Virus record (IMG/VR): IMGVR_UViG_3300048883_000513
Location: 1-32,982 of that record
Origin: a virus
DNA length: 32,982 nucleotides
Reading direction: 5' to 3' (one strand)
Made by a program: the position numbers and the translations under genes. A model generated the notes under the pieces. That model had not been told where the DNA came from, searched no databases, and saw nothing but the letters and a program-made list of their open reading frames with translations. Positions 1-32,982 of the stretch are shown in pieces (position 1 is the first letter of the stretch; every line of letters starts with the position of its first letter).

Positions 1-1226
1 AATACAGTACAACTAGTGGGGATTACAATACTGCAACTGGGCAAGGTTCGCTATATTCAAATACCACGGGTGGTTGGAATACTGCCGTGGGAACTAACTC
101 TTTATACGGGAACACCACAGGCTCAAAGAATATCGCTATTGGCAATGACGTATTATACGCTAGTACTACAGCCTCATATAGTACTGGACTTGGATATCAG
201 TCTTTAAGATATAGCACCACAGGTGGGGAAAATACAGCCTCCGGCTATAGGAGCTTGTTCACGAACACCACAGGCATAAAGAACGTAGCTTTTGGTAGGC
301 ATGGTCTGTTTAGCACAACCACAGCAGAAAAAAACACAGTCATTGGTGACGAAGCGGGATACTGGATAACAACAGGCTCAAAGAACACCATCCTCGGACG
401 CTACAGCGGCAACCAAGGTGGCTTAGATATTCGCACATCCAGTAACAACATCGTACTGTCTGATGGGGATGGGAATCCTAGGGTTAGTGTGAGTAATACG
501 GGTAGTATGAAACTACAAAAGGGGGACTTAACATTAACATCAAGCGGTGCTTCTTATATACGTTGGTATGATGTAAATACAAACACTATCACTATGCACA
601 GCAACTCTGTCGATTTAAGATGGAAAGATGCTGTTAATAGTGACCCTATAATGCAGATTAGCCAAGCAGGCAATCTAACCATTGATGGTTCATATAGCAC
701 ATCAGGCGTTGACTATGCCGAGTTCTTTGAGTCAACTGATGGTACTGCAATTCCTACAGGTTCAACTGTTACATTAGATAATGGTAAAGTTAGATTATGT
801 CAATCTGGTGAAATACCTTTGGGTGTAGTAAGACCAAACAGTACGTCAAGCACAATAGGTGGTGAACACCTGTTTAGCTGGAAAGGTAAATACCTTAAAG
901 ATGATTATGACGGTTATCTAACAGAAGATGTTAATTATTATTCTTGGGAAGATGGGGGCAATAGTTTTGCCTATTATACAGATAGGATGCCAGATGGGAT
1001 AACACCCCCTACGGATGCAACCCTATCAGTCCAAACACGGAAACTACTAAATCCAGATTACGATGAAACACAAGAAGAGTTTTATACCCCAAGAAGCACA
1101 AGGGAGGAGTGGAATGTCATTGGATTACTAGGACAAATTCCAATAACTAAAGGACAAGTAACTGGTGGAAGCTGGATTAAGATGAAAGATGTGTCTAATG
1201 CAGTTGAAATGTGGTTTGTTAAATAA
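1..1226 (+). CDS. Tail fibre, C-terminal part (5' truncated), with 17-residue repeats and Peptidase_G2 chaperone domain
   Basis: The frame is open from base 3 with no start, so the gene begins before the window. The first ~130 codons are NTTG-type 17-residue repeats. A beta-rich linker follows, then from about base 699 a domain beginning SGVDYAEFFESTDG, with TVTLDNGKVRL, PLGVVRP and a conserved end REEWNVIGLLGQ...WIKMKDV. This matches the Peptidase_G2 (intramolecular chaperone, autoproteolytic) domain at the C-terminus of phi29-type appendages, which trimerises the fibre and is then cut off. The role is host recognition at the virion surface. The repeats match those at 31957-32982, so this is most likely the end of the gene that starts at 31702. 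I recognise the domain by motif; the cleavage residue was not identified. Confidence 0.85.
   Translation, partial: YSTTSGDYNTATGQGSLYSNTTGGWNTAVGTNSLYGNTTGSKNIAIGNDVLYASTTASYSTGLGYQSLRYSTTGGENTASGYRSLFTNTTGIKNVAFGRHGLFSTTTAEKNTVIGDEAGYWITTGSKNTILGRYSGNQGGLDIRTSSNNIVLSDGDGNPRVSVSNTGSMKLQKGDLTLTSSGASYIRWYDVNTNTITMHSNSVDLRWKDAVNSDPIMQISQAGNLTIDGSYSTSGVDYAEFFESTDGTAIPTGSTVTLDNGKVRLCQSGEIPLGVVRPNSTSSTIGGEHLFSWKGKYLKDDYDGYLTEDVNYYSWEDGGNSFAYYTDRMPDGITPPTDATLSVQTRKLLNPDYDETQEEFYTPRSTREEWNVIGLLGQIPITKGQVTGGSWIKMKDVSNAVEMWFVK
27..434 (+). repeat. 17-residue (51-bp) fibre repeats, distal part of the array
   Basis: Seven full units of 17 codons run from base 27 to 383, each starting with an N-T/S/I/V-x-x-G pattern and ending in [NST]TT[GA]xx. 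A partial unit lies upstream, and a degenerate one (NTILGRYSGNQ) begins at 384 and runs out into the linker. The units are more diverged than those at the other end of the window. The pattern resembles YadA-head-like beta-roll repeats. It is coding sequence, not a DNA-level exact repeat. Confidence 0.85.
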
Positions 1227-1264: not shown

Positions 1265-1492
1265 ATGGAAGACGTAATATTAGAAGTACCAACAATAGAA
1301 GAAATCGCACAACACTTCTCAGCAATGGGTGACTCAGTTGACTTACTTAACGCAGGACAACCAGTAGGCATGGGCAATGACGAGTGGACAGATTGTAAGG
1401 CTCGTAATGTAGAACATCTTGAACTAATGGTTGCTAAAGACTTCTGGACAGATGAAGACATGACAGCAGTCAACGCGGCTATTGCGGCTTAA
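1265..1492 (+). CDS. Small acidic protein of unknown function downstream of tail fibre
   Basis: 75 residues, acidic, no membrane segment. AAGGAA sits about 8 bases before the ATG, the same leader style (AAGGAaaAyACaATG) as the next two genes. Its N-terminus is rich in E, I and V (MEDVILEVPTIEEI) and a central NDEWTDCKARN segment stands out. It lies 38 bases after the fibre stop and before the DUF6447-like gene, so it is probably expressed with the late genes. I do not recognise a family. A fibre-associated accessory role is only a guess from position. Confidence 0.75.
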   Translation: MEDVILEVPTIEEIAQHFSAMGDSVDLLNAGQPVGMGNDEWTDCKARNVEHLELMVAKDFWTDEDMTAVNAAIAA

Positions 1493-1518: not shown

Positions 1519-1734
1519 ATGAGCGAAAAACAAAAAGAAACTCAGACTGTTGAAATTGATGAAGTGCAGTACGACATTGAATCTTTCACAGACCAACAGA
1601 AATCATTTCTTAATCATGTTGCTGATTTAGAGCGGAAGATTTCCAACGCTTCATTCAACTTAGACCAGTTGCAGTTTGGTAAGCAAGCGTTTGTCAGTGC
1701 TTTGAAAGAAAGTTTAAACGAGCCAGCAGAATAA
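1519..1734 (+). CDS. DUF6447-like small phage protein
   Basis: 71 residues. The layout is typical of a small phage family (DUF6447-like): an N-terminal 'TVEIDEVQYDIESFTDQQK' strand/turn region, then an amphipathic helix (residues ~25-65) containing a paired Leu/Gln pattern (LERKIS...LDQLQFGKQAF) that looks like a short coiled coil. AGGA lies 8 bases before the ATG. Such genes commonly sit at the end of the tail/fibre operon in environmental phages; their function is unknown. The family call is from memory of the pattern. Confidence 0.75.
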   Translation: MSEKQKETQTVEIDEVQYDIESFTDQQKSFLNHVADLERKISNASFNLDQLQFGKQAFVSALKESLNEPAE

Positions 1735-2421: not shown

Positions 2422-2641
2422 TATCTATTTGCCTAGATGGTTTGTTTATATACTGATTATTATGATAACTGTACCTGTACTGAATGGCTGCTCGGCGGGT
2501 GCAGTCATCTCAAAGAGTGCGTCCTTCGCTGTGTCTAAATATTGTACCGTCCCACAAGGAGGAAGAAAGGCTATTCGCAAGGCTGTCAGTCGGGCTGTGC
2601 ATCCAAATACCATTAGAATAACGTGTGCCACAGATGATTAA
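2408..2641 (+). CDS. Small phage lipoprotein in lysis cassette
   Basis: 77 residues. After a short polar start comes a hydrophobic signal (WFVYILIIMITVPV, 11-24) and a lipobox L25-N-G-C28, so Cys28 should be lipidated and the ~50-residue mature part anchored to the outer or inner membrane. The mature part has SKYCTVPQGGRKAIRKAV, a pattern I associate with a recurrent phage family beside endolysins, and a second Cys near the end. It is not proline-rich like Rz1. The 3' end overlaps the lysozyme start by 17 bases. An o-spanin-like role is possible but unproven. Confidence 0.75.
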   Translation: MSNASIYLPRWFVYILIIMITVPVLNGCSAGAVISKSASFAVSKYCTVPQGGRKAIRKAVSRAVHPNTIRITCATDD

Positions 2642-3041
2642 AGAAACCGAAGATTACATCAAGTCGAATGAGGGTTTGCGGCTCATGCCTTATGACGACT
2701 CGCTTGGCTTAACGACTATCGGTTATGGGCGTTGCTTAGAAACTAACGGCATCACTCAAGCTGAAGCGGATATGCTATTCACTAATGACATGGATGTTGT
2801 CGTGTATGAGTTGCGTAAGATATTTACAAACTTTGATGGGTTAGGGTATAGCCAACAAAAATGCCTGATGGATATGTGCTTTAATCTTGGCTCAACCCGA
2901 TTGCGGAAGTTTAAAAAGATGATAGCCGCCATCGAAGCTGGTGACTTCAATAAAGCGTCTGTGGAGTTATTGGATAGCAGATATGCTAGACAATTACCAA
3001 GACGCTCTGGCGACAATGCTATTCTGATGCGGCTCGTCTAG
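2625..3041 (+). CDS. Endolysin, T4-type lysozyme (GH24 muramidase)
   Basis: 138 residues from a GTG at 2625; an ATG at 2634 would give 135. It cleaves the MurNAc-GlcNAc bond of peptidoglycan at the end of infection. The catalytic triad spacing of T4 lysozyme is intact: E16, D25 and T31 in NEGLRLMPYDDSLGLTTIGY. The C-terminal YARQLPRRSGDNAIL element is also conserved. No signal peptide or SAR helix is visible, so a holin must release it. It is a little shorter than most family members. Its start lies inside the lipoprotein gene and its 3' end converges on, and overlaps by 23 bases, a small minus-strand gene. Confidence 0.93.
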   Translation: MPQMIKETEDYIKSNEGLRLMPYDDSLGLTTIGYGRCLETNGITQAEADMLFTNDMDVVVYELRKIFTNFDGLGYSQQKCLMDMCFNLGSTRLRKFKKMIAAIEAGDFNKASVELLDSRYARQLPRRSGDNAILMRLV

Positions 3042-3717: not shown

Positions 3718-3720
3718 GAT

Positions 3721-3837: not shown

Positions 3838-3857
3838 TGACTATACGCGTTTATAAA

Positions 3858-5759: not shown

Positions 5760-5762
5760 TAC

Positions 5763-6407: not shown

Positions 6408-6657
6408 TTAAGTATGTCTCCAAAAGCATTGCATATCCCGCAATGTCATGTGCATTATCTGCATAGTCTGGATCACCACATACCATTCTAGAAATTTTAT
6501 GAAAAATCATGTGGATAGCTTCGAGATGTGCATTATCTAGCTTATCAAAACTAGGAGCTGATTTAATAACTAATATTAATTCCTGACATATTCTAGAGTT
6601 ATCTTCGAATGACCCATAACGATCACCCCTAGATTTTAAAGTATCATTTACTTCCAT
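6394..6657 (-). CDS. DUF6378 protein
   Basis: 87 residues matching a small phage family (DUF6378): RGDRYGSF (10-17), then a helix and the conserved KISRMVCGDPDYADNAHDIA (54-73) ending in GYAML. The Asp/His-rich second motif resembles those of all-alpha nucleotide pyrophosphatases, and the gene lies between a MazG-like gene and the TS-family gene. A nucleotide-related role is plausible but not shown. Both ends overlap neighbouring genes by 14 bases. Confidence 0.85.
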   Translation of the reverse strand: MEVNDTLKSRGDRYGSFEDNSRICQELILVIKSAPSFDKLDNAHLEAIHMIFHKISRMVCGDPDYADNAHDIAGYAMLLETYLNAKN

Positions 6658-8876: not shown

Positions 8877-8877
8877 A

Positions 8878-9642
8878 CTATTTCATCCATTCAGGTTTAG
8901 CTAATTCTTGAGCACCTGATTGCGAGTAATCGCCCCATTGATTATATTCTTTGCATCTCAATAGTGTATCTAAATTACGATTTCTTATTTTTAAACCTTC
9001 ATTAATATATTCATCTGATAAAGTATAAATACCAACCTGATAAGGAGGTGTTTTCTCAACCGCTACAAATATAAATTGATGGAAAGGTTTGTTGTTAAAC
9101 CCATCTAAATAATGAGCAGCTTGTACGTGGTATCGATATTTCCACACAGATTGTGCGAATCCTTTAGGGCTTGCATCGGCAGTAGTCTTAAGATCAATTA
9201 CTTGTCCCTGCTTTAAATAATCGGGTCGGCATTTTAATTCAGCATGAGTTCTTGGATCTTCCCAGAATACTGAAGTTTCAGCAGCCCCATTTTGGAATAA
9301 ATCACCTGCTGCGCTTTGACTAACGGAATATGCCATATCGGCAGCAATGGATAAGTCCGATTGTGATATAACTTTTTTATTTTCATTTTCTTTTTGAAAT
9401 TTAGCATAACGTTCTTTACCTATCTTGGTGCGTCTATCTACAAGAGGAGCAATCGCATATTCTGAATTAAATAGATCCGGTTCTAAGATTAAAGTATGAA
9501 CCAATGAACCGAATACGAATGCGGGTTTTGTGTCAGGTTCAGGATTGTCCATGCGATAACGATAGTGTGCCGGACTAACATTTATTAAATCTAATTGGGA
9601 TTTTGAAATAGCAGAAGTTTTATGATATTTTTTATTATCCAT
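8878..9642 (-). CDS. PD-(D/E)XK exonuclease (RecE/ExoVIII-like, DUF3799)
   Basis: 254 residues from the ATG at 9642, which has GGA 8 bases upstream; an earlier in-frame ATG at 9654 has no ribosome site. RecB/Cas4-type motifs are complete: H49 (FGSLVHTLIL), D141 (CRPDYL), D150-L-K152 (VIDLKTT) and Q174 in the QAAHYLDGF helix. It would degrade one strand of duplex ends to make 3' tails for annealing or recombination. It works naturally with the Sak4-like ATPase and the DUF669 protein further up the operon. The start lies inside the upstream gene by 8 bases. Confidence 0.9.
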   Translation of the reverse strand: MDNKKYHKTSAISKSQLDLINVSPAHYRYRMDNPEPDTKPAFVFGSLVHTLILEPDLFNSEYAIAPLVDRRTKIGKERYAKFQKENENKKVISQSDLSIAADMAYSVSQSAAGDLFQNGAAETSVFWEDPRTHAELKCRPDYLKQGQVIDLKTTADASPKGFAQSVWKYRYHVQAAHYLDGFNNKPFHQFIFVAVEKTPPYQVGIYTLSDEYINEGLKIRNRNLDTLLRCKEYNQWGDYSQSGAQELAKPEWMK

Positions 9643-9901
9643 TTTTATTTCCATTAATTTGAGGTCTTAGGCCATCAACTTCATTTCGCAAGGGGCGGTA
9701 ATGTTGACTTGACCACGCTTGTAGCAATCTGTTGATGATCACAAGATCTCTCATAGGCATCTCGGTAGAGTTCATCACGACATGACTTATGCCACTCAGT
9801 CTCGAGGTGGCATCGTCATATTTTAGGAATCGAGATTTGTAGCCCACGATAGTCTTAACGGATGTTCTTATTCCTTTGTGCTGTATCTTAATTAGTGTCA
9901 T
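9635..9901 (-). CDS. Hypothetical basic early protein
   Basis: 88 residues, basic, with codon use somewhat richer in G+C than its neighbours. The N-terminal half looks beta-rich (TLIKIQHKGIRTSVKTIVGY) and the C-terminal half helical. No family is recognised. GGAG lies 9 bases before the ATG, within the end of the upstream gene, three bases after whose stop it begins. The different composition may mean it was acquired separately. Confidence 0.65.
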   Translation of the reverse strand: MTLIKIQHKGIRTSVKTIVGYKSRFLKYDDATSRLSGISHVVMNSTEMPMRDLVIINRLLQAWSSQHYRPLRNEVDGLRPQINGNKNG

Positions 9902-9904
9902 GAT

Positions 9905-10087
9905 TTATTCTCCAAATAATTCTTTATAAACGCATTTAGCCTCACGGTTGATTGTGGCTTGTGAGTCTTGCGACCAATCTACTAGCCATTGATTATTCAT
10001 TTCGCATTCAACTTTCTGTGCTTGCTCGGCTGAACATTTAGTTGCTTTCATGATGTCTTTTATTGCTAACGTAAGTTTTATTGCCAT
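9905..10087 (-). CDS. Hypothetical helical protein, first gene after the second leftward promoter
   Basis: 60 residues from ATG 10087, which has TGAGGA at a 7-base spacing; an ATG two codons earlier (10093) would be only one base from that site, so it is rejected. The residues AIKDIMKATKCSAEQAQKVE look like a UBA- or HTH-like helical module and NQWLVDW is a conserved-looking patch. It is the first gene downstream of the promoter/operator at 10129-10171. Function unknown. Confidence 0.65.
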   Translation of the reverse strand: MAIKLTLAIKDIMKATKCSAEQAQKVECEMNNQWLVDWSQDSQATINREAKCVYKELFGE

Positions 10088-10128
10088 TTTCATATCCTCA
10101 TTTAATGGTTTTCGTTGATGGTAGGTTA

Positions 10129-10157
10129 ATTATAAGCTGTTCTACTATAATTGTAAA
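10129..10157 (-). promoter_or_regulatory. Leftward sigma70-type promoter for genes 10087 to 3019
   Basis: Reading the minus strand: -35 TTTACA (10157-10152), 17-base spacer, -10 TATAAT (10134-10129), a near-consensus promoter. A 9+9 bp palindrome covers the -35 box. The downstream untranslated leader is about 35 bases. The sequence CGTTTAC is shared with the -35 region of the other leftward promoter at 13455-13484. Confidence 0.75.
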
Positions 10158-10171
10158 CGTATTTTACAATT
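10149..10171. promoter_or_regulatory. Operator-like perfect palindrome over the -35 box
   Basis: AATTGTAAA (10149-10157) and its exact inverse TTTACAATT (10163-10171) flank CGTAT. The 23-bp site overlaps the -35 box of the leftward promoter, the position expected for a repressor. The Cro-like protein at 13577 is the only DNA-binding regulator seen in the window, so it is the candidate ligand. Confidence 0.65.
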
Positions 10172-10173
10172 GC

Positions 10174-10191
10174 TTTATAATCAATTATAAA
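10174..10191. repeat. Second AT-rich palindrome at the helicase stop codon
   Basis: TTTATAAT-CA-ATTATAAA, perfect 8-bp arms, spans the helicase TAA (10185-10187), two bases from the operator-like palindrome. It lacks a T-run on the minus strand, so it is not a standard terminator. A second binding site or an RNA hairpin protecting the 3' end are possible. Confidence 0.45.
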
Positions 10192-11813
10192 AAATTAACA
10201 CCTACAACTTTTGGAAATTTGCTATTTAAATCAACAAGAATACTCTTTGGATTCAATAACCTACGACTATTCACTAACGCTTCATCTACCGATAAAGGAG
10301 GATCAAGATTAATTCCTATCTTGCTTAGTGGCTTAGTACGTTCTAACCACCAACATTCTGCTTTGGATCTAGCAAATCGAGACGCTGATTCGAATGCAAC
10401 CCATTCTGAATACGCCGATACCCCACATTGATAAGTAACTTTTAAAGTTGGAGGCTTACCATTTCTACCAGAATGTTTAGAATATCGTACTTTTGTCACG
10501 GTAGCTTTTGAAGGAGGTAATTTACGGGATAAAATATCAGCTAGCGATATATCATTCGAGTGTGTGGGATTTTCATTTATAGGAAAAGGAGTTCCGCATT
10601 CTGGACAAATTTTAGTAGATGGAAAACACATTTCCCCACACACTTCGCAGAGCTTGATGATAGGCTCTGAATTTTCATTTTTACGTCGTTCTACAGGGGC
10701 TTTTATTTCATCTAATGGTCCCAATTCTTCTGTAGTATCTGTAAAATCTAACCAAAGGGCATTCTTTTTACCTGGATAAGGTCTTAAGAATCTACCTGCA
10801 ATTTGAACGAATAAACCTGGACTAGCGGTTGGCCTAAGTAATATCCCACAATCTAGCGCTGGAAAATCGAAACCTGTAGTCAAAACCCCAATGTTACATA
10901 AAAATTCAATTTTACCCGATTTGAAATCACTAATAATTCTGTTACGTTCTATTTTAGATGTTTTACCATTAACCACTTCACAGATCTTATTATTTGATCT
11001 TATTTCGGAACATACCATTTCGGCGTGTTTAATTGACGAACAGAATACTAATTTATGATTTCGGCCTTGAGACAAATTAATAGCTTGTGCAACAGCTTGG
11101 CGGATAATTAACGGATTCCCTGTCACTAGCTTATCAACATCTTTTTGAGTATATTCACCCGCCTTAGATTTATTTAAATTTAAGGTTTTTGCTTTGTAAA
11201 ATATTTCATGGTGCGGGGAAATTAGAGGAACTAAATGGTTATCAGTTAGGGCTTGCTTAATTCCATAAGTATAAATGATCTCAGTAAATAACCGATTTTC
11301 ACCAACGGTCAAGCACCCACCTTTCATTCGATAAGGGGTACCAGTAAATCCTATGACTTTCAATTGTGGATTAATTTCTGTTAATTTAGAAATCAATTTG
11401 CCATACATTCCTCTTTCTGATTCTTTTGAAATTAGATGGGCTTCATCAACAATTATCAAGTCCCGATGTGAGAATAATTCTGCATCAGAGTACATCGATT
11501 GAATGGATCCGTAAATCACATCTGCTTTAGTATTCCGCTCATTGAAAGCTGCAGAATTAATCCCATGCGAATATTCAGGATCTAATGCGGTTAGCTTAGA
11601 ATAGTTCTGTTCTACTAATTCTTTGACATGAACCAAAATTAACACCTTCTGGTCAGGCCATTTATTTTTTAAATCATCAACAAAATGTGCAATGACATGA
11701 CTTTTACCACTCCCCACACACATATCAATTAGGGGGTGACCAACCCCGTTTGTCATTTTATAATAATGGTATATTCTGTCAATGGCAGCTTGCTGGTAAG
11801 TTCTTAGTTTCAT
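10185..11813 (-). CDS. SF2 DEAD/DEAH-box helicase with zinc ribbon
   Basis: 542 residues. Motifs: Q-like RTYQQAAID (4-12), Walker A CVGSGKS (32-38), DEAH (123-126), motif III GFTGTPYR (155-162), motif VI QIAGRFLRP (337-345). A four-Cys zinc ribbon follows (C389, C392, C403, C406) and then a ~130-residue C-terminal domain with aromatic and basic patches. It is of the UvsW/RadD-like type: an ATP-driven DNA helicase for branch migration, repair or replication restart. The ATG lies 32 bases inside the upstream gene and has no strong ribosome site, so coupling is likely. Confidence 0.9.
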   Translation of the reverse strand: MKLRTYQQAAIDRIYHYYKMTNGVGHPLIDMCVGSGKSHVIAHFVDDLKNKWPDQKVLILVHVKELVEQNYSKLTALDPEYSHGINSAAFNERNTKADVIYGSIQSMYSDAELFSHRDLIIVDEAHLISKESERGMYGKLISKLTEINPQLKVIGFTGTPYRMKGGCLTVGENRLFTEIIYTYGIKQALTDNHLVPLISPHHEIFYKAKTLNLNKSKAGEYTQKDVDKLVTGNPLIIRQAVAQAINLSQGRNHKLVFCSSIKHAEMVCSEIRSNNKICEVVNGKTSKIERNRIISDFKSGKIEFLCNIGVLTTGFDFPALDCGILLRPTASPGLFVQIAGRFLRPYPGKKNALWLDFTDTTEELGPLDEIKAPVERRKNENSEPIIKLCEVCGEMCFPSTKICPECGTPFPINENPTHSNDISLADILSRKLPPSKATVTKVRYSKHSGRNGKPPTLKVTYQCGVSAYSEWVAFESASRFARSKAECWWLERTKPLSKIGINLDPPLSVDEALVNSRRLLNPKSILVDLNSKFPKVVGVNFL

Positions 11814-12063
11814 CGTTTACTATTTCGTTGATTAATTTTTTAATTTCGCTTTTCTGCGAATCGATTTCAGCTTCAACTTCTTCATAAAATTGGTCAGTTG
11901 CTGCAGTATTAAAACTGAAATCATTTCTTAATCCTAACAATTTAATTAATAATTCTTGATGATGAACTAAAACCAATTCTTTTTCTCTAGCTTCTTCTGA
12001 TTTAGCTTCTTCAATTTGATTATCGATTGATAAGGTGCGGGATAATTCATCAAACAAACTCAT
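11779..12063 (-). CDS. Coiled-coil early protein
   Basis: 94 residues from ATG 12063, chosen because GGGGAG lies 8 bases upstream; the frame is open further upstream but that part overlaps the previous gene. The body is one long acidic helix (IEEAKSEEAREKELVLVHHQ ... EIDSQKSEIKKLINEI), a likely coiled coil and dimer. It overlaps the helicase start by 35 bases and the upstream stop by ATGA. No family is recognised; a helicase partner is a guess from the tight linkage. Confidence 0.7.
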   Translation of the reverse strand: MSLFDELSRTLSIDNQIEEAKSEEAREKELVLVHHQELLIKLLGLRNDFSFNTAATDQFYEEVEAEIDSQKSEIKKLINEIVNDETKNLPASCH

Positions 12064-12218
12064 GACATATACTCCCCAAGCATGATTACGACTACCCACG
12101 AGGCGGCTAGTGCAACCATAAATGCAACGCCAACTAAACCTACATCTAACCAATTTTCGCTGTTAGAATCAACTTTCATGTCTAAATAATCCCGTATATC
12201 TTCATTTTTATTTTTCAT
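12060..12218 (-). CDS. 52-aa single-span membrane protein
   Basis: The ATG at 12218 has GGGGA 5 bases upstream and follows a terminator. A charged N-terminus (KNKNEDIRDYLDMKVD) is followed by a hydrophobic span (VGLVGVAFMVALAASWVVVI, ~28-47) and a short tail. An N-in, C-out or the reverse inner-membrane peptide is expected. Its stop overlaps the next start (ATGA). Its role is unknown; small membrane proteins in early operons can act on host processes such as superinfection exclusion, but nothing here shows that. Confidence 0.7.
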   Translation of the reverse strand: MKNKNEDIRDYLDMKVDSNSENWLDVGLVGVAFMVALAASWVVVIMLGEYMS

Positions 12219-12237
12219 AACTATCCCCAATTTAATT

Positions 12238-12263
12238 AAAAAAGCCCCACCCGAAGGCGGGAC
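12238..12263 (-). terminator. Strong Rho-independent terminator inside the early block
   Basis: On the minus strand GTCCCGCC-TTCG-GGTGGGGC followed by TTTTTT: an 8-bp stem (two G-U pairs) capped by a UUCG tetraloop. It lies just after the DUF669 gene, so transcripts from the 13455 promoter should mostly stop after two genes, unless antitermination or read-through occurs. Confidence 0.88.
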
Positions 12264-12277
12264 AATGGAGGGAAATC

Positions 12278-12727
12278 TTAACCAGCCCATCCAGGTTTAG
12301 ACTCAGCATTTGGATTTATACTTTTCGCACTACCAGCATACGCTTTTACATCATTTGAGGCTTCCCATTCCCCTTGTGCTGGGCGGATTGCTAATTTGCA
12401 TGAAAATGGTTTGCCATGCAATTGCTCAGTATCGGACAATTCAGCTACATTGGTAGCTTTACATAATGCCTTAATTGCTGCCTTTGCGATACTCACAGCA
12501 GTTGCACTAGGATTGTCAAAATTAAGACGATCCCAAATCATTCTTCCGCTATGGGTAGGTCCTAAAATTTCAATTTGCAATTGAATATATTTACCAGTTC
12601 CTGCTTTGGTTGTTTTAATTTCAGAATTAACAATTTGAGCATCATACCAACCTGGTGGCAATGGTTGAAAATCAGGAGTTGTTTCTTCAATTTCATCTAC
12701 TTTGATTGCACTATCTAAAAAAGCCAT
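12278..12727 (-). CDS. DUF669 protein (likely ssDNA-binding / replication accessory)
   Basis: 149 residues with the DUF669 pattern: PLPPGWYDAQIVNSEIKTTK (22-41), AGTGKYIQLQIEILG, then GRMIWDRLNFDNPSATA and an LC-A-x-N-V helix. These proteins are regularly encoded next to AAA ATPases, recombinases or polymerases in phages and are thought to bind single-stranded DNA in an OB-like way; that role is inferred. AGGA lies upstream of the ATG. It is the second gene of the short transcript from the 13455 promoter and is followed directly by a terminator. Confidence 0.85.
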   Translation of the reverse strand: MAFLDSAIKVDEIEETTPDFQPLPPGWYDAQIVNSEIKTTKAGTGKYIQLQIEILGPTHSGRMIWDRLNFDNPSATAVSIAKAAIKALCKATNVAELSDTEQLHGKPFSCKLAIRPAQGEWEASNDVKAYAGSAKSINPNAESKPGWAG

Positions 12728-12746
12728 AATATTTTCCTATATAAAG

Positions 12747-13421
12747 TTAGTTATAAATTTTTGCAGCAATTGATTCAAAAGAAGGTTTTTCCAAAGAATC
12801 TAATTTTCCCGACCGGTCTTTACAAGCATATTGCAAGTCTGGTTGAGTTTGGAAAGCACGATAAGTCCCGCCATCACCATCGTCGATAATTCTCAAAGCA
12901 AATACCCCATCGAAAAAATAAGGAATTTGTTGGCCTAATTTTGCGCCCGGTAACCCAGGGCTAAATACTAAACGATTAAGATTATCTTGAACTCTTTCTT
13001 GCTTACAAGTCATGACCACGTTTCGTTTTGGTAAATCCCGGAAAGCTCTAATTATTGATCCCATTTCTTCGATTATTACGCCATACGCTTGGCGTGGATC
13101 ATTAACTTTTTTCTTTTCTTCAGAAAGTAAAACTTCTGCAATATCTGACAACGAATCAATGAATATCCATTGATGATCAGATTTATCAGAATTTAAAAAA
13201 CTATAAACTTCCTTTAGCTCTTGAATTGAATTGATTGCCACACTGTCAATTGTGGAATCTTTAATTGATAAAAGTCCGGCTTCAGAAGAAATCAAGATGG
13301 ACTTTTCAGATGAAGGGGCTGTAGTACACGCCACTGTTTTACCAACCCCTGCCGGACCGAAAATTAGGATTTTTAATCCCTGGTCCATATACGCCTGGTT
13401 GATGGGTTTAATGTTTATCAT
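12747..13421 (-). CDS. P-loop ATPase, AAA_24 / Sak4-like recombinase
   Basis: 224 residues from the ATG at 13421. This start has CGAGG at a 7-base spacing and lies downstream of the promoter; an in-frame ATG at 13472 is upstream of the expected transcript start. Walker A is GPAGVGKT (22-29), E47 sits in SSEAGLLS, Walker B is WIFIDSLSD (85-93), and CKQERVQDN follows. This is the RecA-core, Sak4-like ATPase family, which promotes strand annealing or exchange together with a single-strand binding protein. It is the first gene of the leftward block, upstream of DUF669 and the exonuclease. Confidence 0.88.
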   Translation of the reverse strand: MINIKPINQAYMDQGLKILIFGPAGVGKTVACTTAPSSEKSILISSEAGLLSIKDSTIDSVAINSIQELKEVYSFLNSDKSDHQWIFIDSLSDIAEVLLSEEKKKVNDPRQAYGVIIEEMGSIIRAFRDLPKRNVVMTCKQERVQDNLNRLVFSPGLPGAKLGQQIPYFFDGVFALRIIDDGDGGTYRAFQTQPDLQYACKDRSGKLDSLEKPSFESIAAKIYN

Positions 13422-13454
13422 TTCGTTGCCTCGTTTTGTAATGTATGAATGTTC

Positions 13455-13484
13455 ATTATATCCTGGAATCACTAGAATAGTAAA
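13455..13484 (-). promoter_or_regulatory. Leftward early promoter for the ATPase-DUF669 transcript
   Basis: On the minus strand: -35 TTTACT (13484-13479), 18-base spacer, -10 TATAAT (13460-13455). It shares CGTTTAC and the following TAGT with the promoter at 10129-10157. The expected transcript start is near 13448, about 27 bases before the ATG at 13421. Confidence 0.72.
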
Positions 13485-13511
13485 CGCTTATTTTTTATAT
13501 TTTAAAATTAG

Positions 13512-13541
13512 TTGTTACAGTGTATAATTATAAATGATAAT
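13512..13541 (+). promoter_or_regulatory. Rightward promoter for the Cro-like gene and PrimPol
   Basis: TTGTTA (13512-13517), 18-base spacer, GATAAT (13536-13541; five of six consensus bases). It is divergent from the leftward promoter, with about 27 bases between the two -35 boxes. AGGTGG then sits 8-9 bases before the ATG at 13577. Weaker than the leftward promoter by consensus. Confidence 0.55.
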
Positions 13542-13576
13542 CTATTTTTAATTTAATCAACCAGGTGGAAATTATA

Positions 13577-13840
13577 ATGGCAAGAATATCTACATACAAA
13601 TATGAAAATGAGGCAATCCAAGAGTTAATTGACAAAGCCGGGAGTCCGGAGCTAGTTGCACATGCTTTAGGGGTTTCTAGAATGTGCTTATATAATTGGC
13701 AACGTAAAGGAGAATTTAATCCATTTGAAGCATTATTGGCTGAGTCAAAATTTGGGATCAGCAAAGAAAAATTAGCTCCTCAAGTTATTGATTGGCCAGC
13801 ACAATGTAATACTGTTGGAGATCATCTTGAGGATATTTGA
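13577..13840 (+). CDS. Cro-like HTH regulator (YdaS type)
   Basis: 87 residues from the ATG at 13577; a GTG at 13565 lies within the AGGTGG ribosome site and is rejected. A helix-turn-helix is visible at 23-45: SPELVAHALGVSRMCLYNW, with GV in the turn and SRMCLYNW as recognition helix, the pattern of YdaS/Cro-type proteins. It would bind operators in the divergent region 13421-13577 and perhaps the palindrome at 10149-10171. No separate CI-type repressor is seen. Its stop overlaps the next start (TGATG). Confidence 0.85.
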   Translation: MARISTYKYENEAIQELIDKAGSPELVAHALGVSRMCLYNWQRKGEFNPFEALLAESKFGISKEKLAPQVIDWPAQCNTVGDHLEDI

Positions 13841-16248
13841 TGGAATCAATTGAAATGTTCGATTTCCTTTTTCAAGGAAAGATGAAGGATGAAAAAATAT
13901 ATGCGGGCAAAATAAATTCACAATTAGGTTTTTCTGAAGTTCCTGAATTGGTTAATTATACCCATCACAAAGAAAAACAATATTTCCACATGTGTAGCCA
14001 TGACGCCAGTAAATTAGGCAAGGGCAGAGGGACAAATGCGTCGGCATTAGGTTTATTCTTTTTATGGGCGGATATAGACACGGAAGAAAAACCCGATTCT
14101 CATCTTAATTCCAAAACCTATTTCCCTACAAAACGTGATGCATTTGAATGGTTAGAATCATTAGATCAACCCCCCACTGTGATTGTGGAAAGTCAATACG
14201 GCTATCATGCGTACTGGAAACTGGATAAAAAATATTCAGCTCAAGAATATAAACACAGTCCTAAAGAGTGGATTAAAGGATACCTTACTGATAATTTACC
14301 CCACGGAATTGTTATTGATCCAGTCGTGGATTTAGCCCGTGTGTTAGGCGTTCCAGGTTCTACAAAAGCCGGATTTGAATTAAAAGTTGTTAAGTTTGAT
14401 GGGGATTTAATTTACCCACTGTCATCTTCACCTCTTGAATCTTCGTCGACCGATATTAATTCGTTAGATATTATTGATTCAATTATTATTAATAAGGTAT
14501 ATACTCCACCTGATTCTAAATTCGCAAAAATGATGTCTAATTCATATTTTAATAAGATATGGAATAAAGATATTATAATTGGGGATGGATCAAACAGCTC
14601 GTATGATTTTTCATTGCTTTCATTAGTTGCCCAGCATGCCTGGACTCCTCAGGAAATGGCCAATTTACTAGTTTCATATCGTGTAAAATGGAAATGTTTT
14701 GAAGAAAAAGGCAGTAATCGAGTTGATTACTATAAGCGATCAATTTTAAAAGTTTGTGATGAATACCAAATCGATATAAATTCTATTCAAGATACGTTAC
14801 ATACTTCGGACTCAGTTATCAATGCATTGAGCAAAATGGATAAATCTGATTTAAAAGTCTCAGGATGTAAATTAGTTGCAGAATCTGAATTATCTGAGAT
14901 TGATTTAGATGAATGTATTGAATATGTTTTTGCTGAAATGAAAGGAGTTAAAAAATCTTCGGTCCGAAAGCAGATTATGAGCTTTAAACGTCTTGACTAT
15001 AAAGAAGAATCTACAGGTGATCGTTGGATTAACAATTACAATTCAAAGTACGCATTATTCACAGGGGGCGGCCGAACTGAAATATTAGATATTGAAGACA
15101 ATTGCTTAAATAATAGACTTGTAAAAGATGCCTTTTTAACAATGACAGCAAATGATAAAATTGGCGATGAAGGTAAAGGTCAGCTATGGATTGAACATCC
15201 TAAACGGCGAGATATTCATGAAATAGTCATGGATCCAGATTTAGAACCAGGAGTATCAGGGAGTTTAGTTAATATGTGGAATGGTTTTAATATTGAACCG
15301 AATGAATATGGATCTAGTGATAAATTCTGGGAATTAACAAGCACTATAATTTGCTCAAATGACGAATCTCGATACCAATATGTCCGTAAATGGATGGCTC
15401 ATGCAATTCAAAAAACTGGAGAAATACCAGGTATTGCTCTTGTTTTGCAAGGACAAAAAGGAACGGGTAAAAATATTTTTGCAGATACTTTTGGACATAT
15501 ATTTGGTCCTAATCATTATTATATGGAACCCAGCCTGCAAGGATTATTTGATGATAAAAATCCTAGATATGGCAAAAGTATTGTTATTTTTGCAAATGAA
15601 GCAACCTGGGGTGGGGATAAAAGACACGAAGGTATGCTTAAATCATTAATTACTGACAAAACTAAAAAGCTCCGGGAAATGTACAAAAATCCGATTGATG
15701 TCAAAAATATGACAAGATTAATAATTGCATCAAATGAGGAATGGGTAATCCCTGCAACTGAAGAAGAAAGAAGATTTTTATTTTGTAATGTTTCAAATAA
15801 AAAAAGACAAAATAGAACATATTTTGGGGCAATAATTAATGAATTAGAAAAGGAAAACGGCTATGGTAAAATATTATTTGATCTACTTAACGAAGATTTA
15901 GTAGGTTTTGATGTGGGGGATTTAACAAGTATTAGTAATGATGGATTAAAATCACAAATTTCAAGGGGTTTATCTAGCAGCCTTGAATGGTTTGGTGACT
16001 GTATATTTGACTGGCCATGGGCGACTAATGAGATACGAAATGACGTATTTATCATGGAATATATTATATGGTGTAAAAATCATAATCGTAAACCATTAAG
16101 CAAAAGAAAATTAGGAATTGATATAAAAAACAATTTTTGCTATGAATTATCCTCGGCTTTGGTAGATGGAAAGATGACACAAGTGAAAATATTTCCACCT
16201 GTCGAAGCCTTAAAAGATATATGGAACGAGAAATTTGGTGAGCTTTAA
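13840..16248 (+). CDS. PrimPol-helicase fusion (NrS-1-like primase/polymerase with SF3-type helicase)
   Basis: 802 residues from the ATG at 13840 (GAGG 7 bases upstream). The N-terminal archaeo-eukaryotic primase domain has the metal pair D78-x-D80 (FLWADIDTEE), SQYGYHAYWKL with H123, and DPVVDLARVLGVPGS (160-174). The C-terminal helicase has Walker A LQGQKGTGKN (~536-545), Walker B-like SIVIFANEAT (~579-588), and SNEEWVIPATEEERRF, the DUF5906-type motor. Such fusions, typified by phage NrS-1, can start and extend DNA chains de novo and unwind the origin. It is followed by the AT-rich candidate origin. It occurs together with a family B polymerase, so it may act mainly as primase-helicase. 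Confidence 0.9.
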   Translation: MESIEMFDFLFQGKMKDEKIYAGKINSQLGFSEVPELVNYTHHKEKQYFHMCSHDASKLGKGRGTNASALGLFFLWADIDTEEKPDSHLNSKTYFPTKRDAFEWLESLDQPPTVIVESQYGYHAYWKLDKKYSAQEYKHSPKEWIKGYLTDNLPHGIVIDPVVDLARVLGVPGSTKAGFELKVVKFDGDLIYPLSSSPLESSSTDINSLDIIDSIIINKVYTPPDSKFAKMMSNSYFNKIWNKDIIIGDGSNSSYDFSLLSLVAQHAWTPQEMANLLVSYRVKWKCFEEKGSNRVDYYKRSILKVCDEYQIDINSIQDTLHTSDSVINALSKMDKSDLKVSGCKLVAESELSEIDLDECIEYVFAEMKGVKKSSVRKQIMSFKRLDYKEESTGDRWINNYNSKYALFTGGGRTEILDIEDNCLNNRLVKDAFLTMTANDKIGDEGKGQLWIEHPKRRDIHEIVMDPDLEPGVSGSLVNMWNGFNIEPNEYGSSDKFWELTSTIICSNDESRYQYVRKWMAHAIQKTGEIPGIALVLQGQKGTGKNIFADTFGHIFGPNHYYMEPSLQGLFDDKNPRYGKSIVIFANEATWGGDKRHEGMLKSLITDKTKKLREMYKNPIDVKNMTRLIIASNEEWVIPATEEERRFLFCNVSNKKRQNRTYFGAIINELEKENGYGKILFDLLNEDLVGFDVGDLTSISNDGLKSQISRGLSSSLEWFGDCIFDWPWATNEIRNDVFIMEYIIWCKNHNRKPLSKRKLGIDIKNNFCYELSSALVDGKMTQVKIFPPVEALKDIWNEKFGEL

Positions 16249-16991: not shown

Positions 16992-17252
16992 ATGCCTGCT
17001 TTTAAAAAAGAAATAAAAGACTTAATCCAAAATATCTATGACGGATATGATCCCATTGTTGCACTTGTCGATATTGGTTTAAACCCTACTGTTGATGTGG
17101 GAATACGAGTTGCATGCCATAAAGAAGTAGCTAAATACTTTCATGCCCCAATGCGATCAAAAGAAGAATCTTATTCTAAATCTGAAGACAATCAAATTAC
17201 AGGTATCCATTTTCAGATAATAGGGCAAAATGGTTCAACCCTTCCTCACTAA
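16992..17252 (+). CDS. Putative terminase small subunit
   Basis: 86 residues just before, and overlapping by one base, the large terminase gene. A helical core DPIVALVDIGLNPTVDVGIR then VACHKEVAKYFHAP matches a short phage family (D-P-x-x-x-L-x-D-I-x-x-x-P...H-K-E-x-A-K-Y) usually found beside terminase. It would recognise phage DNA for packaging. No canonical HTH is clear. The call rests mainly on position. Confidence 0.6.
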   Translation: MPAFKKEIKDLIQNIYDGYDPIVALVDIGLNPTVDVGIRVACHKEVAKYFHAPMRSKEESYSKSEDNQITGIHFQIIGQNGSTLPH

Positions 17253-18514
17253 TGAGTATAATTGGATTCCAGGTAACTCAACCGCAATACGATTTTCATC
17301 AATTAGATTGTAAATACCCAGCATTTATTGCTGGATTCGGTTCTGGTAAAACTGAAACTCTCATCCAGTCTGCAATTAAGGATAAACTATTAGCCCCTCG
17401 TTACAATGTTGCATGTTACGCTCCGACTTATGATTTATTAAAATTGATTATTGCTCCTAGATTAATTGAAGCATTGGAAGAATTAGGAATTATTCATACA
17501 TATAACAAAAGTGATAATACAATATCCTGCTATAAATATGGAAAATTTATATTGCGAAGTTTAGATAACCCGGCCAGAATTGTAGGTTATGAAACATTTA
17601 GGGCTCATGTTGATGAATTAGATACACTTAGATTACAAAGTGCAAAAGATGCATGGAATAAAATCATTGCCCGTAACCGATCAAAAGTAGAAGGAGTACA
17701 AAATAAAGTTAGCGCTTATTCGACTCCTGAGGGATTTCAATTTGTATATGAACGCTGGGCTAAAAACCCAAATGAAGATTACAAGTACATAACTGCCCCC
17801 ACATATTCTAATCCTTTTCTTCCTGAAGGATATATTGAGGGATTAAAAGCAACTTATCCTCCTCAATTAATTGAATCATATATTGAGGGAAAATTTGTAA
17901 ATCTAACAACTGGAAGTGTATATCCTAATTTTGACAGACTTGATAATCTCGACAATGACAATGTAATTGAAAAACCATACGAAGCATTGCATATCGGAAT
18001 GGATTTCAATGTAAACAATATGGCAGCCGTTGTGCATGTCATGAGAAATGGCATTGCATACGCCGTTAATGAGTTCACAAATGGTAGAGATACCCCTAGC
18101 ATTGTAGAAACGATATTTGAATATTATCCAGTTGATAAACATTCGATAATTATTTATCCTGACGCCAGCGGTAGGGCAACAAAGTCCACCAACGCAAGTC
18201 AATCGGATATAACTATATTAAAAAATGCGGGTCTAACTGTTTCAGCTCCGAGAAGCAACGGGCCAATTAAAGATCGGATTGCGTCATTTAATAAGGCATT
18301 ACGAGACCCAAACGGGTTTAGACAATATCATGTAAATTTGGAACGCTGCCCCGTATTAGCCCTGTCATTGGAGCAACAATGCTATGATAAAAACGGAATG
18401 CCTGATAAATCTTCAGGACTGGATCATATACTAGACGCCTCTGGCTATTTTGCGGTACGGCAATTCCCTATAAAAGCTAAACCTATTCATTATCCTAAAC
18501 AAAGATGGACATAA
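17252..18514 (+). CDS. terL: Terminase large subunit (ATPase-nuclease)
   Basis: 420 residues. ATPase: Walker A GFGSGKT (28-34), adenine-binding YAPTYDLL, Walker B AHVDELD (D121, E122), and coupling motif AYSTPEG (155-161). RNase H-fold nuclease: D251 (IGMDFNVNN), D304 (YPDASGR) and a third acidic residue in SGLDHILDASGY (~394-405). It drives DNA into the prohead and cuts it. The start overlaps the previous stop (TAATGA). Codon use is AT-rich like the replication genes, unlike the portal that follows. Confidence 0.95.
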   Translation: MSIIGFQVTQPQYDFHQLDCKYPAFIAGFGSGKTETLIQSAIKDKLLAPRYNVACYAPTYDLLKLIIAPRLIEALEELGIIHTYNKSDNTISCYKYGKFILRSLDNPARIVGYETFRAHVDELDTLRLQSAKDAWNKIIARNRSKVEGVQNKVSAYSTPEGFQFVYERWAKNPNEDYKYITAPTYSNPFLPEGYIEGLKATYPPQLIESYIEGKFVNLTTGSVYPNFDRLDNLDNDNVIEKPYEALHIGMDFNVNNMAAVVHVMRNGIAYAVNEFTNGRDTPSIVETIFEYYPVDKHSIIIYPDASGRATKSTNASQSDITILKNAGLTVSAPRSNGPIKDRIASFNKALRDPNGFRQYHVNLERCPVLALSLEQQCYDKNGMPDKSSGLDHILDASGYFAVRQFPIKAKPIHYPKQRWT

Positions 18515-18515
18515 T

Positions 18516-19871
18516 ATGAGCATTACAGAACCCAATGATATATTTACACAACATCAAACACTTTGGGAATTCCATTTAAGGAGTTTCTTGGGCGGCGATG
18601 ATTATAAGAGCGGCAATTATCTAGTTAAATATACACTAGAGGATGCAGATGAATATAACAAGCGGATAGATTTAACACCCATCGACAATCATTGCAGAAA
18701 TGTCGTGCAGATATTCTCCAGCTTTGTTTGGCGTGTACCACCCAAAAGGGATTTGGGTAGCTTAGGCGATGACCCAGCCATTAATGCTTTCCTTGGGGAT
18801 GCTGATTTAGATGGGCGCGAACTGAATGAGTTTATGCGTGATGCTCAAATCTGGGCTAGTGTTTATGGTCATTGCTGGCTGGTTGTGGATAAGCCACCAT
18901 CTAATGCTAAAACCAGAGCGGAAGAATTAGACCAAGACATTCGACCTTACATCCAACTCATCACTCCAGAGAATGTCTTTGATTGGCGTTATGAACGCGC
19001 CGAGTCTGGGCGATATGTCCTAACTTATTTGAAAGTGCGTGAGTGGGTTGAGGGCGATGAGCAGTTCTTTCGGGTGTGGACGAATGACCGAATTGAGGGC
19101 TGGAGTGTTATTGGTGACGAGGAAAAGAAAGTAAGCGATATTCCGAATCCATTAGGCATTGTTCCAGCAGTCTGCTTATACGCGCAACGCTCACCGATTC
19201 GTGGCACAGGTATTTCGGACATTGGTGACATTGCTTTAAAACAAAAAAGCATCTACAACAAGCTGTCTGAAATTGAGCAGTTAATTCGTATTACTAACCA
19301 CCCATCGTTAGTTAAAACACAGGGAACAGATGCAACGGCTGGTGCTGGGGCAATCATTCACATGGATGACGACCTTGACGCTGGATTGAAGCCTTATTTG
19401 TTGCAACCCTCTGGAACTAACTTAGATGCAATTAGAGCTTGTATAACGGACGAAGTTGAAGCTATCAACAGAATGGCGCACATGGGCGCAGTTCGTGCGA
19501 CAGAAGCGCAGACAAAGAGTGGTGTGGCATTACAAACCGAGTTTCAGTTGTTAAATGCGCGGTTATCTGAGAAAGCATCATTATTAGCGTTAGCTGAAGA
19601 ACAAATCTGGGATATATTCGCTAAATGGCAAGGCATTGAAAATCAAGTGCTGACCGATTACAACAACGACTTTGACTTGCATGACTTGGGTGCTGAACTG
19701 GACTTTTTACAACGCGCCAAAGCATCAGGGATTAAATCAACAGCATTTGTTCACGGCGTTGATGAGGGCATTGCTAAATTGGTTCTTAAAGATAAAGAAC
19801 TGGATGAAGCACTAAGCCAAATCAAGGCAAATACTATTGTAGTTGGTGAGTTTACTGATGGCATCGAATAA
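18516..19871 (+). CDS. Portal protein (DUF4055-like)
   Basis: 451 residues. The order of elements fits a portal: an N-terminal helical region, a central domain with PYIQLITPENVFDWR and LGIVPAVCLYAQ, a long helix LKQKSIYNKLSEIEQLIR, and a KSGVALQTEFQLLNARLSEKASLL stem region (given here in two parts: KSGVALQTEFQL, then NARLSEKASLL). These are hallmarks of DUF4055-type portals. It forms the dodecameric channel for DNA entry and exit. It begins one base after the terminase stop. Base composition turns richer in G+C within its first ~60 codons. Confidence 0.85.
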   Translation: MSITEPNDIFTQHQTLWEFHLRSFLGGDDYKSGNYLVKYTLEDADEYNKRIDLTPIDNHCRNVVQIFSSFVWRVPPKRDLGSLGDDPAINAFLGDADLDGRELNEFMRDAQIWASVYGHCWLVVDKPPSNAKTRAEELDQDIRPYIQLITPENVFDWRYERAESGRYVLTYLKVREWVEGDEQFFRVWTNDRIEGWSVIGDEEKKVSDIPNPLGIVPAVCLYAQRSPIRGTGISDIGDIALKQKSIYNKLSEIEQLIRITNHPSLVKTQGTDATAGAGAIIHMDDDLDAGLKPYLLQPSGTNLDAIRACITDEVEAINRMAHMGAVRATEAQTKSGVALQTEFQLLNARLSEKASLLALAEEQIWDIFAKWQGIENQVLTDYNNDFDLHDLGAELDFLQRAKASGIKSTAFVHGVDEGIAKLVLKDKELDEALSQIKANTIVVGEFTDGIE

Positions 19872-20766
19872 CCGACACGCAAGGACGCTGGAAAAGCTGG
19901 CTGACCAATACGAGCGGCTTTTAAACGAGTCGCTTGTTAAGTTTGAAAAGTCTATTGTCACTAAGTTAGCCAGTGCGCCAACATCAGCAGACAAGTTATT
20001 TGATTTGCAGTTTGCGCTAGGTATGCGCCAATCATTACGCGAAGCGGTTGAAAAGGAAGTGTTGACCGAGGTGCATAAGGCGATTGCTAACTTTGACGGT
20101 GCTGAGAAATCATTGATTGAAATGTATGGCGCATCTGGCATTGATAAAGCCTTGCTGACTGTTGACCGCTCCATTGTCAGGCAACTTAAAAAGCTAACAT
20201 TCCAAGGCTTTGAGGATGTCGCTGAAACCTTTATTGATTCCATTAGTCGTGAGATTTACCAAAGCACGTTAACGGGTAAGCCCTTGGCTGATTCAATACG
20301 TTCAGTTCAGCAACAAATCAATGGCGTGTATATCCAGACCAATGACGTTGAAGCGCAAGAACTGGTTGAGTTCATTGCGGAAAGTAAGTTTGACCCCAGC
20401 AAACAGGGCGCAGTGGATTCGGCAGTGGAGCAGTTGCATACTAAATACGCAAGAGATAGGGTTGGCAACAATCTCAGGCGTTATGCAACGCAACAACTAC
20501 ACGATGGCTTAATGCAATATTCCGCATCCATCAATATGCAGATGGCTAATCAGTTAGGTGCTGACAAGTTCAAGTATTTTGGAACGGTGGTTGAGGATAC
20601 GCGCCAATGGTGTAAAGACCATATAGGTCGTGTTATGACAGAACAAGAAATCAGGGATGAATGGTCGAATAATAGCTGGGCTGGCAAATCGTCAAGCGAC
20701 CCATTTATAGCGCGTGGTGGTTACAATTGTCGCCATCATTTCAGAGCAGTTTTTAACGAAGATTAG
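19858..20766 (+). CDS. Head morphogenesis protein, Mu F-like
   Basis: 302 residues from ATG 19858, which has GGTGAG 7 bases upstream; TTG and GTG codons just before it are rejected because they precede the ribosome site. The N-terminal two thirds are helical. The C-terminal domain carries the Mu F signature D-T-R-x-W-C (VVEDTRQWCKDHIG), then GGYNCRHHF near the end. Such minor capsid proteins sit at the portal vertex and assist prohead assembly. It overlaps the portal 3' end by 14 bases. Confidence 0.88.
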   Translation: MASNNRHARTLEKLADQYERLLNESLVKFEKSIVTKLASAPTSADKLFDLQFALGMRQSLREAVEKEVLTEVHKAIANFDGAEKSLIEMYGASGIDKALLTVDRSIVRQLKKLTFQGFEDVAETFIDSISREIYQSTLTGKPLADSIRSVQQQINGVYIQTNDVEAQELVEFIAESKFDPSKQGAVDSAVEQLHTKYARDRVGNNLRRYATQQLHDGLMQYSASINMQMANQLGADKFKYFGTVVEDTRQWCKDHIGRVMTEQEIRDEWSNNSWAGKSSSDPFIARGGYNCRHHFRAVFNED

Positions 20767-31413: not shown

Positions 31414-31709
31414 TGGAGATTAAAACCACTTGCCCATTGGGAAGCCAGTGCGAGGAAATAAAAGATAACCAGATGCACCGTTGTGCTTGGTATACGAACA
31501 TCAAGGGCAAAGAACCACAGTCAGAAGAAATGATTGATAAGTGGGAATGTGCGATTGCGTTCATGCCGATGTTACAAATTGAGATGTCGCAAACCAACAG
31601 AGGGCAGACAAATGCACTGTGTTCTTTCCGTGATGAGATGATTAAAACAAATGAAAAAGCGTTGGCTATTCAGTCAGCAAAATTGATGATTGGAGAAGAA
31701 ATTGGCTGA
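31413..31709 (+). CDS. Conserved phage protein with cysteine pattern
   Basis: 98 residues. Five Cys (7, 13, 24, 46, 70) within TTCPLGSQC, HRCAWYTNIKGKEP and DKWECAIAFMPMLQIEM. I associate this pattern with a small recurrent family located among fibre genes of environmental phages; the Cys could bind a metal or an Fe-S cluster. The ATG shares a base with the previous stop (TAATG). Its end overlaps the start of the large fibre by eight bases. Function unknown. Confidence 0.75.
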   Translation: MEIKTTCPLGSQCEEIKDNQMHRCAWYTNIKGKEPQSEEMIDKWECAIAFMPMLQIEMSQTNRGQTNALCSFRDEMIKTNEKALAIQSAKLMIGEEIG

Positions 31710-32982
31710 TAAAAAAATAAGTGAGTTAACTGCGCTCACGACTGCAAATGACAGTATTGAATTTGTTATTAATGATGGTGGCGCGTCTAAGAAGATAACT
31801 AGGGCAACATTGCTTACAGGTGTAGGCGTTGATACTCAGCTAACAGCAACAAGCAATATCGGATTAGGTTCTGGTGCTGTCGATTCGATTACTACGGGTG
31901 ATTTCAATGTGGGGTTGGGTGATTCTGCGCTGACCTCGGTTACTTCATCAAATGATAATACCGCTGTAGGCTCCTCTGCTTTAACAGCAACCACTACAGG
32001 TAATAAAAATTCTGCATTAGGACGTTCCACTCTATGGACAAACACCACAGGTTCAAGTAATGTCGCTATTGGTTATGGTTCTATGTTCTACAACACAACA
32101 GCGCATTACAACACAGCTGTTGGTGTAGAATCACTACTATCCAACACAACAGGCACAAACAATACTGCCTCTGGTTATCAGAGTTTGTACTCGAATACTA
32201 CAGCTTCTGGAAATACAGCAGTTGGTGATGTAGCTTTAAAAGCAAACACTACAGGTGCTTCTAACACATCAGTTGGTAAAAATGCTCTGACAGCTAATAC
32301 TACAGCGCATGACAATACAGCAGTTGGCTGGAACGCTTTAGCATCCAATACTACAGGCTCTACTAATGTTGCTGTTGGGACTGCTTCTTTAGATGCTAAT
32401 ACGACAGCTTCTAATAACACAGCAATTGGTATGCACTCTCTTGGGTCTACCACTACAGGCGCAAACAATACTGCATCTGGTCGTAGTGCTTTACACTCAA
32501 ACACCACAGGCTTGGATAATACTGCCTCTGGTTATCGGGCTTTGTACTCAAATACTACTGGCTCATATAATACTGCTGTTGGTAGAGAGTCACTTAGAAA
32601 CAACACCACAGCGCATTACAATGCCGCGTTTGGTCAGAACTCAATGTATCAAAACACCACAGGCACAAACAATACTGCTTCTGGTTCTCATGCTTTGTTC
32701 TCAAACACCACAGGCTCATACAACGCCACTGGTGGTGTAGGTGCTTTATACAATAACACCACAGCGCATTACAATGCCGCTTATGGGTTTAATGCTTTGT
32801 ACTCAAACACCACAGGCGGTTACAATACATCAGTTGGTTCTAATTCTCTATTCACAAACACCACAGGCGCGAGCAATACTGCTTCTGGTTATCAAGCGTT
32901 GTACTCGAATACTACGGGTGCTGAGAATAACGCTTTTGGTTTAAACGCCTTATATTCCAACACAACAGGGAGTACCAATACT
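31702..32982 (+). CDS. Large tail fibre, N-terminal part (3' end beyond window), TTG start
   Basis: TTG at 31702 has GGAG at a 6-base spacing and is followed by ADKKISELTALTTANDS and KKITRATLL, the typical N-terminal attachment element of phage fibres. From base 31957 the chain is made of 17-residue repeats until the window ends in-frame at 32982 after 427 codons. The C-terminal part is most likely the open frame at 1-1226. If the two ends are joined, the protein would exceed 830 residues. The TTG start is unusual but the only one with a good ribosome site. Confidence 0.85.
   Translation, partial: MADKKISELTALTTANDSIEFVINDGGASKKITRATLLTGVGVDTQLTATSNIGLGSGAVDSITTGDFNVGLGDSALTSVTSSNDNTAVGSSALTATTTGNKNSALGRSTLWTNTTGSSNVAIGYGSMFYNTTAHYNTAVGVESLLSNTTGTNNTASGYQSLYSNTTASGNTAVGDVALKANTTGASNTSVGKNALTANTTAHDNTAVGWNALASNTTGSTNVAVGTASLDANTTASNNTAIGMHSLGSTTTGANNTASGRSALHSNTTGLDNTASGYRALYSNTTGSYNTAVGRESLRNNTTAHYNAAFGQNSMYQNTTGTNNTASGSHALFSNTTGSYNATGGVGALYNNTTAHYNAAYGFNALYSNTTGGYNTSVGSNSLFTNTTGASNTASGYQALYSNTTGAENNAFGLNALYSNTTGSTNT
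31957..32982 (+). repeat. Twenty tandem 17-residue (51-bp) repeats of the fibre
   Basis: Twenty complete units plus two residues, each of the form N-T-A-x-G-x-x-[AS]-L-x-x-N-T-T-[GA]-x-x. Units differ at DNA level, but blocks such as AACACCACAGG and AATACTGC recur many times. The period is constant at 51 bp. Such arrays fold as elongated beta-roll or beta-helix shafts, and unequal recombination between units can change shaft length. Confidence 0.9.

Follow-up and report, generated by a model that had tools for sequence, protein, structure and literature searches.

The window, that is, the whole stretch of DNA analysed here, corresponds to an entire IMG/VR record (32,982 bases), which is classed linear and for which no end repeats are recorded. 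One open reading frame (ORF) runs open up to the final base, with its last codon closing at 32982, and another is open from base 3 and stops at 1226. These ORF coordinates confirmed the frames that the initial annotation had read at the two ends, from which it had proposed that both fragments are one gene broken by the assembly in a repeat and that the genome is near-complete and circular as a map. The question raised by this locus is whether one gene runs across the two contig ends. Both ends were found to fall inside one gene, on the same strand and in compatible frame, and the evidence set out below indicates that the window is very probably one near-complete marine tailed-phage genome with a circular map, which the assembler opened into a linear contig within the tail-fibre gene. 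Closure by terminal overlap, by which IMG/VR and CheckV recognise circular contigs, was ruled out, since no suffix-prefix identity was found between the two ends of the window. Within the window, end sequences of at least 10 bases each occurred only once.

Fibre fragments at the two contig ends

The N-terminus of the right fragment, ADKKISELTALTTANDSIEFVIND, matches the gene at the same position in relatives, and its first residues, MADKKISEL, match the start of the equivalent gene in contigs L092, L093 and L100. Because the relatives begin MADKK[LI]SEL at that point, the fibre probably starts with the TTG at 31702, which lies where the gene upstream has its stop (31702-31709); the mechanical ORF listing had given a TTG at 31690. 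The right fragment thus has a fibre N-terminus and lacks the C-terminal domain. The left fragment has the conserved cap GRYSGNQGGLDIRTSSNNIVLSDGDGNP followed by a Peptidase_G2 domain and lacks an N-terminus. Since the N-terminus is present only on the right and the C-terminus only on the left, each fragment represents half of a tail fibre (Table 1).

The Peptidase_G2 match (PF11962, residues 220-382) had an E-value of 4.8e-33 and a score of 114.9 bits against a curated cut-off of 25, and the left-fragment C-terminus matched the phi29 preneck appendage (3gqh) at 1.4e-19. The window fibre thus has its C-terminal autochaperone in common with phi29 gp12 and other Peptidase_G2 proteins, but differs from them in its shaft, which is an array of 17-residue repeats. 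The residue before the Asp of the DYAEFFES motif is Val in the window and the aligned residue in 3suc is Ser; self-cleavage at this motif would be a putative activity of the domain. Structure modelling of the right fragment gave an all-beta repeat (pLDDT 72.5) with no significant match in the PDB, and the model of the left fragment was poor (57.3), so both models were too weak to be used for anything beyond a beta-rich shaft. The fibre would probably be a trimeric beta-rich shaft (beta-solenoid) whose G2 domain guides trimer folding in the manner of phi29 gp12. No such fibre was found in the bacterial genomes searched.

Table 1. Coordinates of the features bearing on the junction of the two window ends
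Feature	Position	Strand	Description
Left array part	3..413	+	1 irregular 18-residue unit and 7 full units (unit listing); ends in conserved cap GRYSGNQ
Fibre C-terminal part	414..1226	+	Linker DIRTSSNNIVLSDGDGNP and Peptidase_G2 autochaperone (~660-1148); stop at 1226
orf75	1265..1492	+	Follows fibre C-terminus; homologue after the intact fibre in CRP-831 (60%), also in G011 (96%)
orf71	1519..1734	+	PHROG 21153; next gene after orf75; homologues in CRP-831 (58%) and G011 (99%)
Phage lysozyme	2625..3041	+	PF00959, 7.4e-14; 87% identical protein downstream of the tail module in G006 and G008
Terminase large subunit	17252..18514	+	Mid-contig; Terminase_6N, 1.5e-11; ~50% identical to Guernseyvirinae terminases
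Tail protein, 936 aa	27796..30606	+	Phage-tail_3, 2.9e-10; homologue directly upstream of the intact CRP-831 fibre; marks tail side of the junction
Two genes, 268 and 98 aa	30607..31709	+	Separate the tail protein from the fibre; order conserved in G008, L092 and L093
Fibre N-terminal part	31702..32982	+	427 codons, open at the contig end; begins at a TTG that overlaps the stop of the preceding gene; PHROG 23837, 1.5e-102
Right array part	31837..32982	+	~22.5 units (unit listing); TRF period 51 at 32451-32906
Terminal 127 bases	32856..32982	+	Same sequence closes IMGVR_UViG_3300048883_000251 (G010); fork in the assembly graph

Repeat array and length of the missing bridge

Both fragments contain the same array, with the unit consensus NTTGxxNTAxGxxALYS (17 residues, 51 bases), and the unit listing agrees with the earlier reading that the repeat register is compatible at both ends. 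The array had been placed at 31957-32982; its end holds, but its start lies further upstream, where units are already recognisable (Table 1). All units of the right fragment are exactly 17 residues long with zero insertions. Since both fragments match PHROG 23837 (left fragment, 6.4e-32) and the array motif is absent from the rest of the window, a common array at the two ends is far from chance. By contrast, unit similarity alone is no proof of one gene: the mean best similarity of the left array was 0.64 to the right array, 0.59 to Roseobacter phage CRP-831, 0.54 to contig L089 and 0.63 to L121, a fibre locus of the contig G011 described below, so that the left-right value is the same as that to L121. 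At the DNA level, the last left unit is 94% identical to L121 and 80% to CRP-831. Alignment of array segments in shifted register was dropped, as it aligned identical overlaps only.

The initial annotation had given 22+51n bases as the length of sequence needed to bridge the two ends in phase. Pairing NTT with the STT found in the first left unit yields this length; if YNTA is taken as the anchor, the extra residue in that unit changes it to 19+51n. Position 15 of the unit is Leu in 24, Met in 2 and Gly in 2 of the 28 units, and 19+51n would put an xAA codon there, which never encodes any of these three residues; 22+51n is therefore favoured. The two fibre halves would thus form one gene whose missing middle would most simply measure 22+51n bases, with n free. 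With an irregular unit at the left end and a break of this special kind, the proposed bridge is only the likelier of the two registers, and the assembly fork lends support to no specific length.

An assembly fork at the right end

When the last 30 bases of the window were used as a query, they were found in one other contig, 3300048883_000251 (G010). The two contigs share exactly 127 bases at their ends and no other exact match of at least 40 bases, and upstream of the common segment their arrays are only ~40-70% alike. Exactly 127 terminal bases are also common to the contigs G006 and G008 (both from 3300025673) and to L074 and L075 (both from 3300024346); 144 bases are common to one more pair, whose members come from separate assemblies. 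The JGI pipeline assembles with k up to 127, and an exact common end of 127 bases is expected where a de Bruijn graph with k=127 forks. In a reported case, SPAdes likewise left k-length identity, there of 77 bases, at contig ends (PMC9409062). As exactly 127 end bases are common to the contig of another phage, the right end of the window is an assembly fork and not a physical terminus.

The break is thus caused by at least 127 bases identical to a different phage in the sample. The idea that the assembly was broken by this genome's own repeat was not borne out, as the longest exact repeat within the two array parts of the window is 26 bases; a tandem repeat as the sole cause was accordingly rejected, since repeats of that length do not halt an assembly at k=127. 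The fork is proved for the right end only, since the first bases of the left end had no exact match in any other viral contig. Among sister contigs, the left end was represented only by one 75% C-terminal relative without the array. Contig L088, which differs from the window at a single base out of 7,189 (99.986% identity), ends in the array, as does L089, and no contig of the same virus containing the join was found.

That the genome is linear, with physical ends that happen to lie in the fibre array, is hardly credible. The linear classification of the record and its lack of an end overlap would fit such a genome, but sharing an exact 127-base end with an unrelated backbone is a mark of assembly, such arrays are interrupted at differing points in several contigs, and tail and lysozyme genes are contiguous in relatives.

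Gene order across the junction in related phages

The isolate CRP-831, deposited as circular, encodes a single intact repeat fibre (567 aa) directly after its tail protein, and homologues of orf75 and orf71 come next in that order. On each of the contigs G006 and G008, the genes for portal, capsid and tail, a fibre region of a different type and the 87% identical lysozyme lie together without a break. From these gene orders, the genes at the right and left ends of the window are neighbours in related genomes. The window contains packaging, head, tail, lysis and replication genes, and its size of 33.0 kb compares with 29.1-32.6 kb for CRP roseophages. Three proposals of the initial annotation are supported, namely one gene broken by assembly, a circular map and a near-complete genome; the evidence lies in the complementary halves, the intact CRP-831 gene with the same neighbours, the tail-to-lysozyme contigs G006 and G008, and the right-end fork.

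We also considered two fibre genes, one whose front lies at the right end and another whose back lies at the left end, with whole genes missing between them. The gap length is not fixed, and G011 does stack a fibre C-terminus, orf75, orf71 and a second 268/98-aa gene pair, yet CRP-831 has a single fibre here with the same neighbours, the fragments lack exactly complementary halves, and the window is already as large as its relatives, making two fibre genes improbable.

CRP-831 (PV211014; 31 kb, circular record), a member of the CRP-822-type group (PMC12629253), resembles the window in its tail protein, its single fibre with the same 17-residue units and its orf75 and orf71 homologues. Both fibres have the cap NTIxGRYxGNQGGLDIRTSSNNIVLSDGDGNP, but that of CRP-831 has fewer units, an unrelated C-terminus and the N-terminal domain of the 268-aa gene fused on. 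The conserved terminase, portal and capsid of the CRP-822-type family were not found in the window: its own gave no match in CRP-831 at 1e-6, although the tail and fibre genes do match. The Pelagibacter phage HTVC202P (MN698248; 32.2 kb) has the same order of terminase, portal, scaffold, capsid and tail genes (capsid 57%, portal 50%), but its terminase is only 30% identical and no repeat fibre was detected in it. The tail module of the window is siphovirus-like.

Terminase and packaging

The best annotated matches of the window's terminase are those of Guernseyvirinae, at ~50% identity over 98%; no close match was found among solved terminase structures. Permuted, redundant ends have been measured for Jerseyvirus SeF1, a member of Guernseyvirinae (PMC9409062), and K1G/K1H-type terminases of the same subfamily group with those of headful phages (PMC5582158). 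Judging from the terminase, the virion DNA is likely circularly permuted by headful packaging; the virion would carry permuted DNA cut from a concatemer.

Alternatively, the circular map may be real but derive from concatemers of a phage with cos or direct terminal repeats. We regard this as unlikely, though with an appreciable chance: the packaging type is read from the terminase alone and terminases are exchanged within the group, but the closest annotated terminases belong to Guernseyvirinae, for which the SeF1 ends are permuted and redundant, and the contig is unbroken through the terminase region, the usual location of cos. In the region 17252-20766, the portal and MuF-type proteins of the window are 93-94% identical to those of G006 and G008 and the terminase only 25%, indicating a swapped terminase. 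Packaging type is therefore not transferable within the group.

A second phage split inside its fibre array

The contig that ends in the same 127 bases, G010 (31,100 bases), also ends in a fibre array, and its backbone is podovirus-like (portal PHROG 1216; terminase 55% identical to that of Sinorhizobium phage phiM5). G011 (3300048882_000412) represents the same virus, with 99.994% identity over 16,422 bases. Its sequence opens within the fibre array, passes through an S74 C-terminus and then orf75 and orf71, and reaches the first base of G010 after 5,830 bases. As G011 runs into the start of G010, this second phage also closes as a circle, save for a gap inside the fibre. Like the window, it is split inside a fibre array, with 127 identical bases and orf75 and orf71 at 96-99%, but it differs in its backbone and in its fibre tip (S74 versus G2).

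Since the two contigs run into one and the same 127-base vertex, their continuations cannot be phased from the assembly alone, and in principle the true partner of the window's N-terminal half might be the S74 end of the other phage, that phage's N-terminus then going with the left half. Such cross-pairing is highly improbable, however, given that both window halves lie on one 33-kb contig and that two phages with two terminases would be fused into a circle of ~70 kb.

Comparison of window positions 366-1725 with positions 124-1266 of G011 (L121) showed the cap in common at 91% and orf75 and orf71 at 97.6% DNA identity, with Peptidase_G2 in the one and Peptidase_S74 in the other between them. 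The identity of positions 32856-32982 to the G010 end (L126/L130) extends over at least 127 bases, while the arrays differ elsewhere, which suggests recent recombination inside the fibre array. Somewhat short of an even chance, we tentatively propose that the array is an exchange site for receptor-binding parts among unrelated co-occurring phages, siphovirus-like and podovirus-like, with G2 or S74 tips placed between the cap and the downstream genes. After orf71 in G011 (L121), the 268/98-aa gene pair is present again, at 1282-2387, so that related phages can carry fibre modules one behind the other.

With the window read as a split circle, what was filed as a linear fragment becomes a near-complete genome with a circular map. 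This reading also explains the systematic cutting of such fibre genes in short-read viromes: four contigs, from three viruses, stop inside such arrays. A common end of exactly 127 bases can be used as a computational test for such breaks. The split gene itself is ordinary genome bookkeeping; less ordinary is that two otherwise different phages of one site have identical fibre-array DNA and exchanged tip domains. The common segment points to a recent exchange of fibre parts between phages of different virion architecture in the same water.

Other regions of the genome

The early/replication region of the window (3156-16248) is almost without relatives, unlike the structural genes. Searches of viral contigs with the window's DNA polymerase and primase gave no match, and no whole-genome relatives were obtained in that way. 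Between the lysozyme and the DNA polymerase, the minus strand carries a cluster of nucleotide and methyltransferase genes at 4462-7057, including those for a dCMP deaminase and a class I methyltransferase.
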